From contig NZ_JARGET010000005.1 of the NCBI RefSeq assembly GCF_029210485.1, positions 62,001 to 126,000 on the forward strand: a stretch of DNA of 64,000 nucleotides, written 5' to 3'. The notes under the pieces were generated by a model, which worked only from the letters and a program-made list of their open reading frames with translations, was not told where the DNA came from and searched no databases. Position 1 is the first letter of the stretch; every line of letters starts with the position of its first letter. Positions 20,947 through 62,437 of this stretch are shown here, in pieces. Source of the DNA: Hoeflea sp. YIM 152468 (GTDB lineage: Bacteria; Pseudomonadota; Alphaproteobacteria; Rhizobiales; Rhizobiaceae). The translations under genes were made by a program, and so were the position numbers.

Positions 20947-22122
20947 TTATTCAATGATCGTTGCGACGATGCCGGCGCCGACGGTACGACCGCCTTCACG
21001 GATGGCGAAGCGCAGCTTTTCTTCCATCGCGATCGGCACGATGAGCGACACTTCCGCCGAAATGTTGTCGCCAGGCATGACCATCTCCGTGCCTTCCGGC
21101 AGCGTCACAATGCCCGTCACGTCGGTGGTGCGGAAATAGAACTGCGGACGGTAGTTGGTGAAGAACGGCGTGTGACGGCCACCCTCTTCCTTGGTCAGAA
21201 TATAGGCTTCCGCCGTGAACTTGGTGTGCGGCTTGACCGAACCCGGCTTGCACAGGATCTGGCCACGCTCGACGTCTTCACGGCCAACGCCGCGCAGCAG
21301 CGCGCCGATGTTGTCGCCGGCCTGGCCCTGATCGAGCAGCTTGCGGAACATTTCAACGCCGGTGCACACCGTCTTCTGGGTGTCACGGATGCCGACAATC
21401 TCGATTTCCTCGCCAACCTTGACAATGCCGCGCTCAACCCGGCCGGTGACAACCGTGCCGCGGCCCGAGATCGAGAACACGTCCTCGATCGGCATCAGGA
21501 ACGGCTGGTCGATCGGACGCTCTGGCGTCGGAATGTAATCGTCAACTGCAGCCATCAGCGCGCGGATCGCGTCCTCGCCCATGGCCTTGTCGCCATCGTT
21601 GAGCGCAACAAGCGCCGAGCCCTTGGTGATCGGAATGTCGTCGCCTGGGAAATCATAGGACGACAGCAGTTCGCGCACTTCCATCTCGACCAGCTCGAGC
21701 AGCTCTTCATCGTCAACCTGGTCGATCTTGTTCAAAAACACCACCAGCGAGGGAACGCCAACCTGGCGCGCCAGCAGAATGTGCTCGCGGGTCTGCGGCA
21801 TCGGGCCGTCGGCCGCCGAGACAACCAGGATCGCGCCGTCCATCTGTGCAGCGCCGGTGATCATGTTCTTGACATAGTCGGCGTGGCCCGGACAGTCGAC
21901 GTGGGCATAGTGGCGGTTCTCGGTCTCATACTCGACATGGGTGGTCGAAATGGTGATGCCGCGCGACTTCTCTTCCGGCGCCGCATCAATCTGGTCATAG
22001 GCCTTGAAATCACCAAAATACTTGGTGATCGCAGCCGTCAGCGATGTCTTGCCGTGGTCAACGTGACCAATCGTGCCGATGTTAACGTGCGGCTTATTGC
22101 GCTCGAACTTACCCTTTGCCAT
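20947..22122 (-). CDS. tufA: Elongation factor Tu, copy 1 (str operon)
   Basis: A 391-residue EF-Tu. G1 is GHVDHGKT at residues 19-26, G3 is in [13 protein letters not shown] and G4 is NKIDQVDD. Domain II has [19 protein letters not shown] and domain III ends [10 protein letters not shown]. It delivers aminoacyl-tRNA to the ribosome. It follows fusA after 101 bases in the str operon. The protein is identical to the copy at 41127-42302, and the DNA appears identical apart from the last sense codon (GAA here, GAG there). Confidence 0.99.
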
Positions 22123-39287: not shown

Positions 39288-39300
39288 GTCTTCTCCCGCC

Positions 39301-39501
39301 TCAAGCGCCGACGTTCAGGATGAGGCCAATGACCCACCCCAACACCTGGTCCGCAGTAAAAAAGAAAATGGAGGCCAGCAGCACCATCACAAGAACCATG
39401 ATCGTCGAGATCGAGGTCTCGCGGCGCGACGGCCACTTCACTTTCGCAGTTTCAGCTCGAACCTGCTGGAGGAATGTAAACGGATTTGTCTTGGATGCCA
39501 T
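39301..39501 (-). CDS. secE: Protein translocase subunit SecE
   Basis: A 66-residue short-form SecE from the ATG at 39499-39501 ([20 protein letters not shown]). The conserved amphipathic [20 protein letters not shown] leads into one membrane helix, the form found in most bacteria apart from the longer E. coli type. It clamps SecY, encoded at 9629. Sixteen upstream codons are open but not conserved. Confidence 0.97.
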
Positions 39502-39576
39502 TTTTTGTCCACGCTTATACGGCGCGTAAAGCCGGTATCCCAGCTCCACGCACCGCGTGTCTGTTAACGCCTACAT

Positions 39577-39616
39577 AAAGCCCGAATCCCTAAACCACAA
39601 GAGGGAAACAGGCTTT
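39577..39616 (-). terminator. Hairpin between tRNA-Trp and secE
   Basis: AAAGCC and GGCTTT enclose an inner CCCT/AGGG pairing within the 221-base gap between tRNA-Trp and secE. T-runs occur on both strands near it. It may partly end the tRNA-Trp transcript or mark 3-prime processing. Confidence 0.35.
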
Positions 39617-39722
39617 TTTCACAAAAGACCAGCGAACTGGCCCGAAGCTTGCTACCCAGCCCTGGGTCATCGGCATGCCGTTCGGCGGCGGATCAACTCG
39701 CGCCAGATCAGAACACCCGGGC

Positions 39723-39798
39723 TGGCAGGGGCAGCAGGACTCGAACCTGCGACCTACGGTTTTGGAGACCGTCGCTCTACCAACTGAGCTATACCCCT
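39723..39798 (-). tRNA. trnW: tRNA-Trp (anticodon CCA)
   Basis: A 76-base cloverleaf on the minus strand with CCA encoded. The acceptor AGGGGTA pairs with TGCCCCT, the D arm contains GCTCAGTTGGTAGAGC, the anticodon arm ACGGTCTCCAAAACCGT exposes CCA, and the T arm is GCAGG-TTCGAGT-CCTGC. It precedes secE-nusG, the usual alphaproteobacterial place. Confidence 0.97.
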
Positions 39799-39814
39799 AT
39801 GCCGATGGCCGACC

Positions 39815-39843
39815 TGATAGCGTCAAATGCAGGAGGAATGCAA
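39815..39843 (-). promoter_or_regulatory. Candidate promoter for tRNA-Trp and secE-nusG
   Basis: On the minus strand TTGCAT (39838-39843), 17 bases, then CTATCA (39815-39820). The -10 is close to the alphaproteobacterial CTATAT. Transcription would begin only about ten bases before the mature tRNA-Trp. Confidence 0.4.
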
Positions 39844-40282
39844 CAAAGAAGTGACCGCAATCGCATTGCCGGCCTGTTTTTCTGCATCAGCCTGCCATTT
39901 GCTGCCCCGGCCGGGCAGAACAGACCCGGCGCAACCCGCCACCGCCCGGTATGCCGGCGCCGGCGGGCGACCGATTCGTGCTGCCGTCGGCCTTGGCGGA
40001 AACCATTCGCCAGGAACCTGCGGTCATCATACCACGGATTCCACCGCTTCGATGTTGGCCCTGGAGACAGAATCGGCGCTGCGGCCGATCGTGTGCGTGG
40101 TGCTGCCACGATCGTCTCTTCGTGCAGGTCGGCGGTCGCGACCGGAGGCGCGGCTCCGGTGACGCCACTGCCGTTGCACAGTCACCGTTTCAGCCGCGAT
40201 TCGAAACCGGGACAGGCAGCCTGACCAATTTCGCGCGGTGCGCGATCAATTTCCCATCCGGCCGCCCGGGATTTCCATGCAG
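39844..40282. other. Intergenic region upstream of tRNA-Trp
   Basis: About 440 bases between the tRNA-Trp promoter and the end of the cysteine-rich protein gene. Several overlapping frames are open on both strands because of high GC, but none resembles a known protein or has a convincing ribosome site. I see no RNA gene or repeat here. Confidence 0.4.
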
Positions 40283-40561
40283 TCAGCCCGAATCGTCGCT
40301 TAAGGCGCACTGCTTGTTGCGGCCGGTGCCGGGTGCATTTTCGAATGTGCATCTCAGGCTCGGCGGGTCGCCGCACTTGGCCTTCAGGGCCTTGAAGCCC
40401 ACGCATTTGCCGGTCGCGTTGATCCGGTAACCGGGCCCACCCTTGCAGCCACATCCCTGGCATGGCGGCCGCTGAGGACAGCCCGCGCCCTGCGCCATTG
40501 CGACAGGCATCAGCAGTCCCATCACCGCGACCGTCACCGCGATCCACGCCCTGCGTCCCAA
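40283..40561 (-). CDS. Small cysteine-rich secreted protein of unknown function, TTG start
   Basis: A 92-residue protein. The start is a TTG at 40559-40561 with GGAGG 6 bases upstream; from there the sequence gives a complete signal peptide, GRRAWIAVTVAVMGLLMPVA then MAQ-GA, with an Arg-Arg n-region. The mature part has eight cysteines, in C-x5-C-x2-C-x-C-x13-C-x8-C-x6-C-x13-C spacing, suggesting disulphides or metal binding in the periplasm. I recall similar uncharacterised proteins in rhizobia but know no function. It stands alone between the tuf2 repeat array and tRNA-Trp. Confidence 0.72.
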   Translation of the reverse strand: MGRRAWIAVTVAVMGLLMPVAMAQGAGCPQRPPCQGCGCKGGPGYRINATGKCVGFKALKAKCGDPPSLRCTFENAPGTGRNKQCALSDDSG

Positions 40562-40930
40562 TCACCCCTCCCCGGTGCCACTGCATCTTCCGCAGCACCG
40601 CCCACCCGACCGGCTGTGCGGTGCGGTAGCTCCCCGGCTCGCTGCAAACGCCGGCGTTCAGTTGAGCACAGGCGAACGCGACGAGCACAGGCCGCACCCG
40701 CCACTCTACACCCCGCCCCGTCCCGGCCAAGCCATGGCCAGGGTCAGTGCCCCTCACCCCCCCGCCCGTCAGTCTGCGGTCAGCCCCCGCGACACCGCCC
40801 ACCACTCAGTCAGCAGGTCAAAAGACCCACGTTTTGCAGTGCCATACATTTGCCGCGGCAGGCTGGCGCCATCGCCGAAGCGGTCCTTGATTATTCAATG
40901 ATCGTGGCGACCATGCCGGCGCCGCCAAAA

Positions 40931-40954
40931 CAAAACGCGCCGAAGCGCGTTTTG
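40931..40954 (-). terminator. UUCG-loop terminator, distal copy
   Basis: CAAAACGCGC, TTCG loop, GCGCGTTTTG: a perfect 10-bp stem on the minus strand followed by TTTTGGC. The loop is the extra-stable UUCG tetraloop. It lies at the junction of repeat units 1 and 2. Confidence 0.8.
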
Positions 40955-41048
40955 CAGTGTCATACATTTGCCTCGGCAAGCTTGCGCCATCGCCGAAGCG
41001 ATCCTTGATTATTCAATGATCGTGGCGACGATGCCGGCGCCGCCAAAA

Positions 41049-41072
41049 CAAAACGCGCCGAAGCGCGTTTTG
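41049..41072 (-). terminator. UUCG-loop terminator after tuf2
   Basis: The same CAAAACGCGC-TTCG-GCGCGTTTTG structure with TTTTGGC, at the junction of units 2 and 3 and 54 bases past the tuf2 stop. This is the main terminator of the tRNA-Tyr-tRNA-Gly-tuf2 transcript. Confidence 0.85.
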
Positions 41073-41126
41073 CTGAGTCATACAATTCCGTCGGCAAGCT
41101 TGCGCCATCGCCGAAGCGATCCTTGA

Positions 41127-42302
41127 TTACTCAATGATCGTTGCGACGATGCCGGCGCCGACGGTACGACCGCCTTCACGGATGGCGAAGCGCAGCTTTT
41201 CTTCCATCGCGATCGGCACGATGAGCGACACTTCCGCCGAAATGTTGTCGCCAGGCATGACCATCTCCGTGCCTTCCGGCAGCGTCACAATGCCCGTCAC
41301 GTCGGTGGTGCGGAAATAGAACTGCGGACGGTAGTTGGTGAAGAACGGCGTGTGACGGCCACCCTCTTCCTTGGTCAGAATATAGGCTTCCGCCGTGAAC
41401 TTGGTGTGCGGCTTGACCGAACCCGGCTTGCACAGGATCTGGCCACGCTCGACGTCTTCACGGCCAACGCCGCGCAGCAGCGCGCCGATGTTGTCGCCGG
41501 CCTGGCCCTGATCGAGCAGCTTGCGGAACATTTCAACGCCGGTGCACACCGTCTTCTGGGTGTCACGGATGCCGACAATCTCGATTTCCTCGCCAACCTT
41601 GACAATGCCGCGCTCAACCCGGCCGGTGACAACCGTGCCGCGGCCCGAGATCGAGAACACGTCCTCGATCGGCATCAGGAACGGCTGGTCGATCGGACGC
41701 TCTGGCGTCGGAATGTAATCGTCAACTGCAGCCATCAGCGCGCGGATCGCGTCCTCGCCCATGGCCTTGTCGCCATCGTTGAGCGCAACAAGCGCCGAGC
41801 CCTTGGTGATCGGAATGTCGTCGCCTGGGAAATCATAGGACGACAGCAGTTCGCGCACTTCCATCTCGACCAGCTCGAGCAGCTCTTCATCGTCAACCTG
41901 GTCGATCTTGTTCAAAAACACCACCAGCGAGGGAACGCCAACCTGGCGCGCCAGCAGAATGTGCTCGCGGGTCTGCGGCATCGGGCCGTCGGCCGCCGAG
42001 ACAACCAGGATCGCGCCGTCCATCTGTGCAGCGCCGGTGATCATGTTCTTGACATAGTCGGCGTGGCCCGGACAGTCGACGTGGGCATAGTGGCGGTTCT
42101 CGGTCTCATACTCGACATGGGTGGTCGAAATGGTGATGCCGCGCGACTTCTCTTCCGGCGCCGCATCAATCTGGTCATAGGCCTTGAAATCACCAAAATA
42201 CTTGGTGATCGCAGCCGTCAGCGATGTCTTGCCGTGGTCAACGTGACCAATCGTGCCGATGTTAACGTGCGGCTTATTGCGCTCGAACTTACCCTTTGCC
42301 AT
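41127..42302 (-). CDS. tufB: Elongation factor Tu, copy 2
   Basis: A 391-residue EF-Tu whose protein is identical to the copy at 20947-22122; the ATG is at 42300-42302. As far as I can read, the DNA is identical too except for the final Glu codon (GAG here, GAA in copy 1), while sequences outside the gene are unrelated. That pattern is typical of continuing gene conversion. AGGA lies just upstream. It follows tRNA-Gly by 550 bases and is followed by the repeat array with terminators. Confidence 0.99.
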
Positions 42303-42852
42303 CGTCCTGTATCCTGTAATTCTGTTGGCAGACTGTAGGTCCGGACGTATTTGAACCGGGACCCGCGAGAAGTTAACGCGACATAAGGCTTTCGCTCCGG
42401 TTTCGCAAGCCCAAATCTGGACACGGGACAAGCCCCGGATCGGGGCTGCTGGCGCGATCACAGCCTCTACCCATTGGTTCGGCTGGCGCCCCAATCCTGT
42501 GCCGTGGCCGATGCCGGGCCGGTGGCTCTCGCTCAGAATACCGGCAAGCCATACCGGGAGACCCGGCCCACAAACAGGCTCCGAACGATTCGCGATGCGG
42601 CGGGGTGCCGTCGAATCTCTGGTCAATGGCCAGGCGGGCTGGAGCGGTGACGCAAACGGTCAGCGCCACCGGCTCGCTTGATAGCGGCGGGGACCCGGCG
42701 ACACACAGCACGGTTCAAATGACCGCGCAAGGCAATCGCCGTGACGGGCTGCACACTGGCCGGGTCATCGCCTTGGCCCGTGCTGAAAAGCGCAGCAAGA
42801 CCTTTGAATGAAACGGCAATGAAATGGATGAGCACGAAAGCCTTGAAATTCT
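42303..42852. other. Spacer between tRNA-Gly and tuf2
   Basis: A 550-base spacer on the transcript from the tRNA-Tyr promoter to tuf2. No open frame looks real, and no tRNA or strong hairpin is evident. The tuf2 frame stays open far upstream (to about 42626), but that part has no EF-Tu similarity. A tuf2-specific promoter could lie here; I found no clear -35/-10 pair. Confidence 0.4.
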
Positions 42853-59452: not shown

Positions 59453-62437
59453 ATGGCAGAAAAAATGCTTATCGACGCCTCCCATCCCGAGGAGACACGC
59501 GTCGTTGTCGTTCGTGGAACCCGCATAGAAGAATTCGACTTCGAGTCGGAGCACAAGAAGCAAATTCGCGGAAATATCTATCTGGCTAAGGTCACCCGTG
59601 TGGAGCCGTCGCTTCAGGCCGCATTCGTCGATTACGGCGGCAACCGTCACGGCTTCCTCGCGTTTTCAGAAATTCATCCGGACTATTATCAGATCCCGCT
59701 GGCGGACCGTCAGGCACTGCTTCAGGCCGAGGCCGAAGATGCGGAAAACGATCCTGATTTTGAAAGTGCTGACGAAGCCGATAACGGCCCCAGCAAAACC
59801 AGATCCAGCTCAAAGGCAAAGCCGGCCGAGGCAGATGAATCGGGCGAGGAAGCCAAGACTTCGAAATCCCGGCCCCGCCGCAGCCGCCGCGGCAAGAAAG
59901 CCGACGAAGAGACAGTGAGCGAAAGCGCCGGTGCTGATTCCGATCACGCGGGAGACGAAGCAGCCGCGCTGACCGCAAGCGAGTCAGGCGACGCACCGGC
60001 AGTCGAAGACGCCGCACAATCGGACACGCCCGCCGATGAGGTGGAGACGGATTCGAGCGACAATGATGACAAGCGGGATGACAAACCGGATGACAAGCCG
60101 ACGGAAATAGCGGCCGATGTCGAAGGTGACGAGATTTCCGAGCCGGTTTCGCGCCGCAGGCGCAAGACCAGCGATGACGACGATTCCAACGATAATGAGG
60201 ATTCGGTCGATTCGGTCGGCTCGGAAGACGCAATGGAAGAAGTTCCGTCGCGGTCGCAGCGCAAGCCGCGCAAGCAGTATCGCATCCAGGAAGTCATCAA
60301 GCGCCGCCAGATCCTGCTGGTTCAGGTGGTCAAGGAAGAACGCGGCAACAAGGGCGCGGCCCTGACAACCTATCTGTCGCTGGCGGGCCGCTATTCGGTT
60401 CTGATGCCCAACACCGCCCGTGGCGGCGGCATTTCGCGCAAGATCACAAATCTTCCCGACCGCAAGCGTCTCAAGGAGATCGCCCGCGAGCTCGAAGTGC
60501 CGAAGGGCATGGGCGTGATCCTTCGCACCGCCGGCGCCAACCGCACCAAGGTCGAAGTCAAGCGTGACTTCGAATACCTTATGCGGCTGTGGGAGAATGT
60601 CCGCAACCTGACGCTCAAGTCGACAGCACCAAGCCTCGTCTATGAGGAAGGCAGCCTGATCAAGCGTTCGATCCGCGATCTTTACAACAAGGATATCTCG
60701 GAAATCATCGTTTCGGGCGAGGAAGGCTATCGCGAAGCCAAAGATTTCATGAAGATGCTGATGCCCAGTCATGCCAAGGTGGTTCAGCCCTACCGTGACC
60801 TGCATCCGATTTTTGCCCGTGCGGGCATTGAATCGCAGCTTGACCGCATGCTGCAGCCGCAGGTCACGTTGAAATCCGGCGGCTACATCATCATCAACCA
60901 GACTGAAGCGCTCGTCGCCATCGACGTCAACTCGGGCCGCTCGACGCGCGAGCATTCGATCGAAGATACGGCCTTGCAGACCAATCTGGAAGCAGCGGAT
61001 GAAGTTGCACGCCAGCTCCGGCTGCGCGACCTGGCCGGCCTGATCGTCATCGACTTCATCGACATGGAAGAAAACCGCAACAACCGTGCGGTTGAAAAGC
61101 GGATGAAGGAATGCCTCAAGCATGACCGCGCCCGCATTCAGGTGGGCAGGATCTCGCATTTCGGTCTTCTGGAGATGTCGCGTCAGCGGATCAGGGCTTC
61201 GGTGCTCGAAAGCACCATGAGACTGTGCCCGACCTGTGGCGGCAATGGTCATATCAGGTCGCAATCTTCGGTGGCCCTGCATGTCCTGCGCGGCATTGAG
61301 GAGTATCTGCTCAAGAACACCACCCATGACATTGTCGTGCGCACCACGGCTGAAACAGCGGTGTACATGCTCAATCACAAGCGTGACACCGTTGTCGATC
61401 TGGAGAAGCGCTTCGGAGTTGCCATCAGCTTCTCGGCCGACGAGTCGGTTGGTGCAAACCACTTCGCCATCGATCGTGGCGGCGCGGTGGAAAGCCCGGT
61501 CAACATCGAGCACATCACGGTCAACTCACCGGCCTATGAAGATGATGACGATGATGTCGTGATTGCCGAAGAACCCGATGACGAGAATTCAGAGTCCGAT
61601 GCAAGTTCGGAAGCCCGGAGCGACGAGCAGTCCGAGCGGGAAGACGGTCAGGGCAAGAAGCGGCGCAGACGCCGCCGGCGTGGCGGACGCAAGTCCGGTG
61701 ACGAGAACGGCAATGGCGACGAGAACAAGGCTTCGGCAGACGAGCGCTCTGATCAAGACGACAACGGCTCCGACGCAAATGGTGATACCGCCTCGGATGA
61801 CGGCTCCGCATCGGCAGAATCGGACGCGGATGGTGACGAGCAGCGGCGCGGCAAGCGGCGCCGCCGTGGCAAGCGTGGCGGACGGCGGAATCGTGAAGAG
61901 GATGCGAACGGCGCGGCAGAGTCGGCAGATCAGTCTGCCAAGACCGACACTGTAGAGACTTCGCCCGAGGAAACGCCTGCGGCAACCGGCGAACCGGTCG
62001 CACCGGTCGAACCGGAGCCTGCGGCGCAGGCTTCAGCGGATGAGGGGCAGCCGTCGGCTGCAACAGACCAGGTTGGAGAAGCGACGGCACCGGCAGAGCA
62101 ACCCGCCGCCAAGCCGGCACGGCGCAAGCGCCGCACCAAGGCCGAAATCGCGGCGGACAAAGCTGCGGCAGAAGCTGCAGCAAATGCTGCCGCCGAACCT
62201 GATGCCGGTGGCGAAAGCGCTGCCGAAGCGGACCCCGCAAGCGAGGCTGCAGCTCCGATTGCCGAACAAGCTGTGGCTGAAGATGCCGCAAGCAGCGATG
62301 AAACCGCGGATGCCGACCAGGTGCGCACTGACATCGCCGCAGTGGCAACTGCACCGGTGGTGACGTCCTCGAGCGCGCCGGACGAGGCCAAGAAGCCCAA
62401 GAAGGGTGGCTGGTGGCAAAAGCGCGGGTTCTTTTGA
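59453..62437 (+). CDS. rne: Ribonuclease E
   Basis: A 994-residue RNase E starting at the ATG at 59453 (MAEKMLIDASHPEETRVVVV), with GAGGAG upstream. The S1 domain is split: residues 1-90 and about 276 onward flank an acidic/basic low-complexity insertion of about 185 residues, a known alphaproteobacterial feature. The catalytic DNase I-like domain has VAIDVNSGRSTREHSIEDTA and GLIVIDFIDMEENRNNRAVE; the zinc link is CPTCGGNGHI. The C-terminal scaffold has arginine-rich patches (KKRRRRRRRGGRKSG) and ends KKGGWWQKRGFF. In Caulobacter such a GWW motif binds PNPase, so a degradosome role is likely. Confidence 0.97.
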   Translation: MAEKMLIDASHPEETRVVVVRGTRIEEFDFESEHKKQIRGNIYLAKVTRVEPSLQAAFVDYGGNRHGFLAFSEIHPDYYQIPLADRQALLQAEAEDAENDPDFESADEADNGPSKTRSSSKAKPAEADESGEEAKTSKSRPRRSRRGKKADEETVSESAGADSDHAGDEAAALTASESGDAPAVEDAAQSDTPADEVETDSSDNDDKRDDKPDDKPTEIAADVEGDEISEPVSRRRRKTSDDDDSNDNEDSVDSVGSEDAMEEVPSRSQRKPRKQYRIQEVIKRRQILLVQVVKEERGNKGAALTTYLSLAGRYSVLMPNTARGGGISRKITNLPDRKRLKEIARELEVPKGMGVILRTAGANRTKVEVKRDFEYLMRLWENVRNLTLKSTAPSLVYEEGSLIKRSIRDLYNKDISEIIVSGEEGYREAKDFMKMLMPSHAKVVQPYRDLHPIFARAGIESQLDRMLQPQVTLKSGGYIIINQTEALVAIDVNSGRSTREHSIEDTALQTNLEAADEVARQLRLRDLAGLIVIDFIDMEENRNNRAVEKRMKECLKHDRARIQVGRISHFGLLEMSRQRIRASVLESTMRLCPTCGGNGHIRSQSSVALHVLRGIEEYLLKNTTHDIVVRTTAETAVYMLNHKRDTVVDLEKRFGVAISFSADESVGANHFAIDRGGAVESPVNIEHITVNSPAYEDDDDDVVIAEEPDDENSESDASSEARSDEQSEREDGQGKKRRRRRRRGGRKSGDENGNGDENKASADERSDQDDNGSDANGDTASDDGSASAESDADGDEQRRGKRRRRGKRGGRRNREEDANGAAESADQSAKTDTVETSPEETPAATGEPVAPVEPEPAAQASADEGQPSAATDQVGEATAPAEQPAAKPARRKRRTKAEIAADKAAAEAAANAAAEPDAGGESAAEADPASEAAAPIAEQAVAEDAASSDETADADQVRTDIAAVATAPVVTSSSAPDEAKKPKKGGWWQKRGFF

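Follow-up and report, generated by a model that had tools for sequence, protein, structure and literature searches.

The tandem array behind tuf2 of Hoeflea sp. YIM 152468 is probably one local instance of a tuf 3'-end cassette that is found across an alphaproteobacterial family, is moved and homogenised by recombination, and is perhaps kept for the sake of its folded 3' end. This reading draws on several kinds of sequence evidence: the anatomy of the locus, its recurrence, the position of the repeat unit as judged from unit-free relatives, signals of base pairing, the likeness of the gene-end copies within a locus, and the presence of identical cassettes on tuf1 and tuf2. What looks like a copying accident is a recurrent feature of a bacterial family.

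The window, by which we mean the whole analysed stretch of 64,000 nucleotides, contains the array at 40830-41160 (period 118, 2.8 copies, 93% matches, score 571; Tandem Repeats Finder over the whole 64 kb). A repeat search of the window also gives spacings of 118 and 118, so that the period reported in the initial annotation, which had proposed a self-comparison as a check, is real. The annotation had described three units, each carrying the last ten tuf codons plus the stop, with a TTCG-loop hairpin at the junctions. Three 33-nt copies of the gene end (“tails”) are indeed located, and the hairpin is found at 41049-41072 and 40931-40954. Because tail 3 precedes a leader of the same type but only a degraded hairpin, the array consists of two complete units and a decayed third, not three complete ones. 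Two short-period arrays lie elsewhere in the window, at 60065-60100 and 61984-62015, with periods of 12 and 9 (Tandem Repeats Finder). The parts of the locus are the following.

41127-42302, minus strand: tuf2 (EF-Tu), the gene with the duplicated 3' end (open reading frame and Pfam EF-Tu domains).
41127-41159, minus strand: tail 1, the functional end of tuf2, last 10 sense codons plus stop, 33 nt (sequence reading).
41009-41041, minus strand: tail 2, a non-coding copy of the tuf end (Tandem Repeats Finder, locus parsing).
40891-40923, minus strand: tail 3, the last non-coding copy of the tuf end (Tandem Repeats Finder, locus parsing).
41117-41140, minus strand: stop-codon hairpin S0 of unit 1, with coding arm, GUAA loop and non-coding arm (fold of the unit).
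41088-41106, minus strand: conserved motif M of unit 1, GGCGCAAGCTTGCCGACGG (conserved columns of alignment A1).
41049-41072, minus strand: long hairpin S2 of unit 1 with UUCG loop, CAAAACGCGC-TTCG-GCGCGTTTTG (reading, fold, repeat search, helix compensated across genera).
41044-41126, minus strand: post-stop part of unit 1 (match to model R1, 62.9 bits).
40926-41008, minus strand: post-stop part of unit 2, with its S2 hairpin inside at 40931-40954 (match to model R1, 53.5 bits).
40819-40890, minus strand: decayed third unit, hairpin reduced to CAAAACGTGGGTCTTTTG at about 40819-40836 (sequence reading).
20947-22122, minus strand: tuf1, which has no array; its coding sequence is 1 nt from that of tuf2, the last sense codon being GAA versus GAG in tuf2 (locus comparison).

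An assembly artefact or collapse is an unlikely source of the array, since it sits in a contig of 384,964 bp, its units differ from each other, and the congener G007, assembled as a single contig of 4,468,465 bp, has a two-tail array. For the fold of the window's unit, z=-2.78 was obtained. No sigma-70-type promoter was found inside the array region (0.3 expected). Of the families in Rfam 15, searched over 39300-42600, tRNA-Trp alone passed the gathering threshold, and istR, rsmX and STnc420 stayed far below it; a known Rfam family was therefore rejected as the identity of the unit. A dispersed repeat of the RIME, REP or MITE kind was rejected as well, because a search of the whole genome yielded no second array, but one array, next the tuf1 tail, and then weak matches. 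When 18 genomes were searched for the hairpin pattern with up to 3 mismatches, it occurred at 20 places in 11 genomes; the 19 that were viewed are all at tuf, the other being in G276 at 1065318. Between tuf2 and tRNA-Trp, at 40283-40561 on the minus strand, lies a cysteine-rich open reading frame of 92 residues (CPQRPPCQGCGCKGGPGYRI...) that matches no Pfam family; similar coding stretches are visible 3' of tuf2 in several congeners and in genus g15.

Within the genus of the window, 16 of 18 genomes were matched, the window's own included (G003 and G013 gave no match). The tuf2 locus is readable in 14 of these, G009 and G015 being known from tuf1 only. At least two tails occur at 10 of the 14 loci, with G008 among them degenerate, and a single tail in G001, G010, G014 and G002. 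The decayed third unit of the window resembles the sole terminator of three of these one-tail congeners (G010, G014 and G002). A terminator of the type seen in single-tail species also comes after the last tail in G017 and G012, where the inner units have the other type of hairpin. The duplicate always starts in this genus at the GGCGCC of the eleventh codon from the end, counting the stop. The first tail of G012 (L100) is strongly recoded (GGCGCAGGGATTGTTGCATCCATCATTGAATGA) after an ordinary tuf body; this genome is listed with 9% contamination.

The search of relatives that the annotation had recommended for counting copies shows that arrays recur across the family and that the number of tails varies. 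The two-tail pattern, which requires a first tail with GGCATCGT and tails 94-124 bp apart and so misses G308, G275 and variants, is present in 37 of 394 family genomes and in 18 of 109 genera, which does not support a local, one-off accident as a general reading. Outside the family it gave no match in the 376 of 397 genomes searched, a weak negative result, since the pattern is blind to tails reading GGCGTCGT. We also used a covariance model, R1, which was built from alignment A1 (41 post-stop stretches) and covers the post-stop stretch only, without a tail. With a cut-off of E up to 1e-6, it matches 50 of 297 family genomes and 29 of 109 genera, with 67 hits. Among 199 genomes of the order, matches outside the family reach at most 29.6 bits, which is noise level. 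Three genomes outside the family attain E below 1e-4, and we have taken such matches, most of which were not looked at individually, to be chance hairpins.

The surroundings of 65 of the 67 R1 hits were examined (G276 at 1065275 and G169 C24 are not included), with a tail defined as 24 of 33 matches or better. A tuf tail stands on both sides in 43, only before the hit in 6, only after it in 2 and on neither side in 9, and 5 lie at a contig edge. As the other parsed loci were found by their two tails, this is the only independent test of the second tail. Of the nine tail-less hits, six are fossils in the spacer between tuf1 and rpsJ, one (G217) comes from a broken assembly, and two lie away from tuf. 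One of the latter, in G147, lies inside a coding region and scores 34.8 bits; the other, in G117 (L271 1337-1417), is an M-like motif with hairpin that scores 50.6 bits with R1 and is not beside tuf. The specificity of the model is therefore less than perfect, as 2 of 65 hits are not at tuf and one of these reaches 50.6 bits. Leaving out G147, 49 genomes have an R1 hit at or near tuf, in G223, G272 and G283 as fossils only. Most family genomes lack the unit by both the R1 and the two-tail searches, and it is therefore dispensable.

An ungapped tail search covered 79 of 80 tuf loci, one per organism (L030 omitted; for L078 and L085 the position assigned to the gene end was wrong), and its sole positive was Fulvimarina. 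The sequence of Fulvimarina manganoxydans (L034) is identical to that of the family genome G208 over 3139 of 3139 bases. We infer that the carrier family is Rhizobiaceae in the wide GTDB sense.

Of 49 loci attempted, 46 were parsed (all but G306, G765 and G693), and they share one anatomy across genera: a tail with its stop, a variable leader, motif M (consensus GCCGAAAGCTGCCGACGGC), a spacer, S2, and then the next tail, with intervals of 100-129 bp between tails. The unit comprises the last 11 tuf codons (stop included) and about 70-90 nt of post-stop sequence, predicted to be able to form S0, M and S2. In alignment A1, 93.3% of the S2 cells are paired, compared with at most 59.1% in slid controls, and 63 cells are changed on both sides versus a mean of 17.7 after shuffling. 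Wobble cells give no clear strand bias, with 14 G-U against 9 A-C in S2 and 12 against 8 in S0, so that the hairpins may be selected as RNA or as DNA. Units on both tuf genes of G020 (L268, L269) have an enlarged hairpin loop that is identical in the two copies.

The stop-codon hairpin S0 varies in register between genera. It is better than shuffled sequences at p<0.05 in 41 of 45 units (four have no significant S0) versus 19 of 45 last copies, a set in which some resemble units; in the window's genome the signal is modest (p=0.037). When arms were swapped across genera, the unit's own arms folded better in 39 of 43 units (p=3.5e-6), and in the control on last copies in 21 of 43 (p=0.15). Through S0, the choice of synonymous codons in an essential gene is tied to an arm that is itself non-coding and has been rebuilt in different registers across genera.

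Comparison with unit-free relatives places the unit. Among 20 comparisons in six genera, 19 show the sequence that flanks a unit-free tuf gene to be more like the last-tail flank than like the unit; the exception, a pair from g18, points in the opposite direction with both values near zero, and two comparisons from g94 are close. Because unit-free relatives carry the last-tail flank, the unit stands between the tuf gene body and the native tail. The unit's tail ends in TGA in genera g25, g60, g41, g85 and g20, and the native tail ends in GAATAA in g25 and in G292 of g85. In G238, G034 and G306, the codons before the unit are synonymous variants that agree with the hairpin arm of this unit but not with the native tail, which indicates that the tail belongs to the unit. 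A reading of the single window overlooked both the position of the unit between gene body and native tail and the pairing of its non-coding part with the last tuf codons.

The tails of one locus are alike beyond kinship. Over 33 sites, they differ on average by 1.23 within a locus, 2.14 between congeneric species and 4.46 between genera (n=44 loci, without the aberrant G012 and the Fulvimarina duplicate of G208), and none of 20000 within-genus permutations gave a within-locus difference as low as that observed. The differences fall on codon positions 1, 2 and 3 in the numbers 1, 11 and 33. Together with tuf1 and tuf2 of the window, which differ at 1 of 1176 nt, this bears out the link to gene conversion made in the annotation. 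In the window, GCA is found in tail 1 and tuf1, GCC in tails 2 and 3, and GAG in tail 1 alone, as if tuf2 had recently been converted by tuf1 to within one codon of the gene end. Since a non-coding tail keeps earlier versions of the gene end, as tails 2 and 3 do with GCC, the arrays are a natural record of conversion events. In G020 and G737, both tuf genes bear the same cassette; its two copies have a single mismatch, which lies in tail 2, and the sequences just past tail 2 are unrelated. Near-identical paralogues, a shared tract and a sharp end of identity are what marks gene conversion of tuf, and a conversion that ended on its right in the spare tail would leave this pattern.

Comparison of units by nearest neighbour places most of them closest to their own genus, and only G005 is clearly apart. 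Its unit is 0.83 like those of g15 and g10, 0.47-0.66 like those of its own genus, and stacked on a genus-type end, which suggests either transfer or retention of an old type. Units could be compared with tuf genes for part of the loci, and the tuf gene of G005 is also close to that of one g54 genome (0.896 against 0.899).

Together, these data suggest a model in which the unit's tail would serve as the gene end, the native tail remaining behind as a non-coding copy. Units most likely pass from one tuf gene to the other, and perhaps from strain to strain, through homologous recombination, for which the gene body would be the left arm and the spare tail the right arm; the spare tail would thus be footprint and arm at once. 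Neighbouring units would expand and contract through slippage or unequal exchange, by which tails would be homogenised and a unit could also be removed precisely. As for why units persist, a folded 3' end may help to end or to protect the very abundant tuf mRNA, an idea whose chances we put a little below even. It is also conceivable, if rather doubtful, that the cassette is a protein-free, homing-like structured 3' module of 100-129 bp, for which the end of an essential duplicated gene is its own recombination arm. Ordinary homologous recombination would bring such a module into any of the family's tuf genes, where it would swap the last codons for a synonymous version fitting its hairpin, leave the old end as the arm for the next transfer, and be able to exit precisely. 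It would spread between paralogues and, as G005 hints, between genera.

Could the arrays instead be neutral? Slippage or unequal crossing-over might have doubled a gene end and its terminator many times, each time independently, and drift might have kept the copies. In the window, G007 and G004, adjacent units are near-identical, as the slippage or unequal crossing-over invoked in the annotation would have it. Copy number varies, with three tails in the window, G278, G750, G036, G085, G239 and G059 (7 of 46 parsed loci) and also in G762, and instability is to be expected of 33-bp direct repeats at a distance of about 100 bp. The post-stop part does match the native 3' flank (0.7-1.0 ungapped identity over 40 nt) at a small number of loci, which include the window's and those of G007, G004, G208 and G750, but at most of 44 loci, and for the most part outside the window's genus, it does not, which is unexpected for a simple local tandem duplication. 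The recurrence of the same motif and hairpin across genera, the matching of S0 to its tail, and the G005 unit, with its greater likeness to other genera than to its own, also speak against neutral duplication, which we therefore consider unlikely. Equally unlikely is the idea that the hairpins are mutational palindromes, with S0 and S2 created and repaired by DNA template switching, recombination doing the rest, and no function involved. Template switching can create and maintain perfect hairpins, according to passages in PMC8794818, and the lack of a clear G-U over A-C bias is in line with it; the conserved unpaired motif M and the restriction of the recurrence to tuf are left unexplained.

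Selection for redundant intrinsic terminators after a very highly expressed gene, a possible benefit named in the annotation, is quite improbable. The hairpin has a UUCG loop, a TTTT run follows 37 of 43 last copies, and such a run is present in the second half of the unit at 9 of 10 loci of the window's genus. Elsewhere this holds for just 4 of 33 loci, so that a GC-rich hairpin with a T-run, the mark of an intrinsic terminator, is far from present in every unit (TTTT in 13 of 43). A simple terminator scan of the window did not list the hairpin, and neither the tail copy nor the stop-codon hairpin is explained; stacked intrinsic terminators fit the window's genus at most. An attachment-site footprint, left by a mobile element that would use the tuf 3' end as its integration site and rebuild that end, is extremely improbable. 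Some integrases target the 3' ends of genes and restore the end with direct repeats, and the precise restoration seen here resembles their action. However, the 100-129 bp between tails leave no room for a gene, the tail pattern is without a match in 2.9 million viral contigs and the unit without one among phage records, and the plasmid matches above noise are rhizobial tuf loci and a Shinella record (99% of the unit query covered at 88% identity). With no integrase, no viral or phage copy and no plasmid match beyond these, a phage or island attachment site was rejected.

The cassette has likenesses to several known systems. When an integrative element restores the 3' end of the gene it targets, the incoming DNA supplies the last codons and the displaced end stays downstream. 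The cassette likewise brings the last codons of the gene and leaves the displaced end 3' of them, but it is without an integrase, none is longer than one unit, and no phage or viral copy was found. The duplicate tuf genes of Salmonella undergo concerted evolution by gene conversion, as cited in passages of PMC8262849 and PMC1780047 (Abdulkarim and Hughes, 1996; Hughes, 2000). Here, too, sequence passes between tuf1 and tuf2, which are nearly identical, and the cassette would ride on this exchange; different from Salmonella, the exchange also takes in a structured cassette and a non-coding copy of the gene end, and its right-hand limit apparently lies in the spare tail. Among the intergenic repeats of Rhizobium, RIME, the Sm repeats and the A/B/C palindromes are described in parts of PMC2573895 and PMC2873474 as short, palindromic and dispersed. 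The cassette's hairpin, judged by those parts, is likewise a short palindromic intergenic element of the same bacteria, but in the genomes searched it is found at tuf loci only. With the hairpins made and maintained by template switching, as passages of PMC8794818 portray them, the cassette has in common perfect stems that are rebuilt in different registers; its conserved motif and its tuf-only location are not predicted there. Gene conversion between tuf genes is thus already known from the passages cited (PMC8262849, PMC1780047). For tuf-tail arrays or this cassette, we found no description in the open-licence literature (subscription journals were outside the scope), and the annotation gave none. 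The cassette links the concerted evolution of tuf genes, the structured 3' ends of highly expressed mRNAs and the spread of short non-coding DNA, which are usually separate topics.

The unit is old at tuf1 too, given the fossil units downstream of this gene. A motif and hairpin without intact tails stand 3' of tuf1 in L010, G230, G283, G070, G737 and G026, with a decayed tail still recognisable in some. In Ensifer sp. LC163 (L010, 1262-1312), the fossil lies in the tuf1-rpsJ spacer and has kept the motif and the hairpin, with its tails decayed. The loci with fossil units in this spacer also include L156, L157, L118, L183 and L185.
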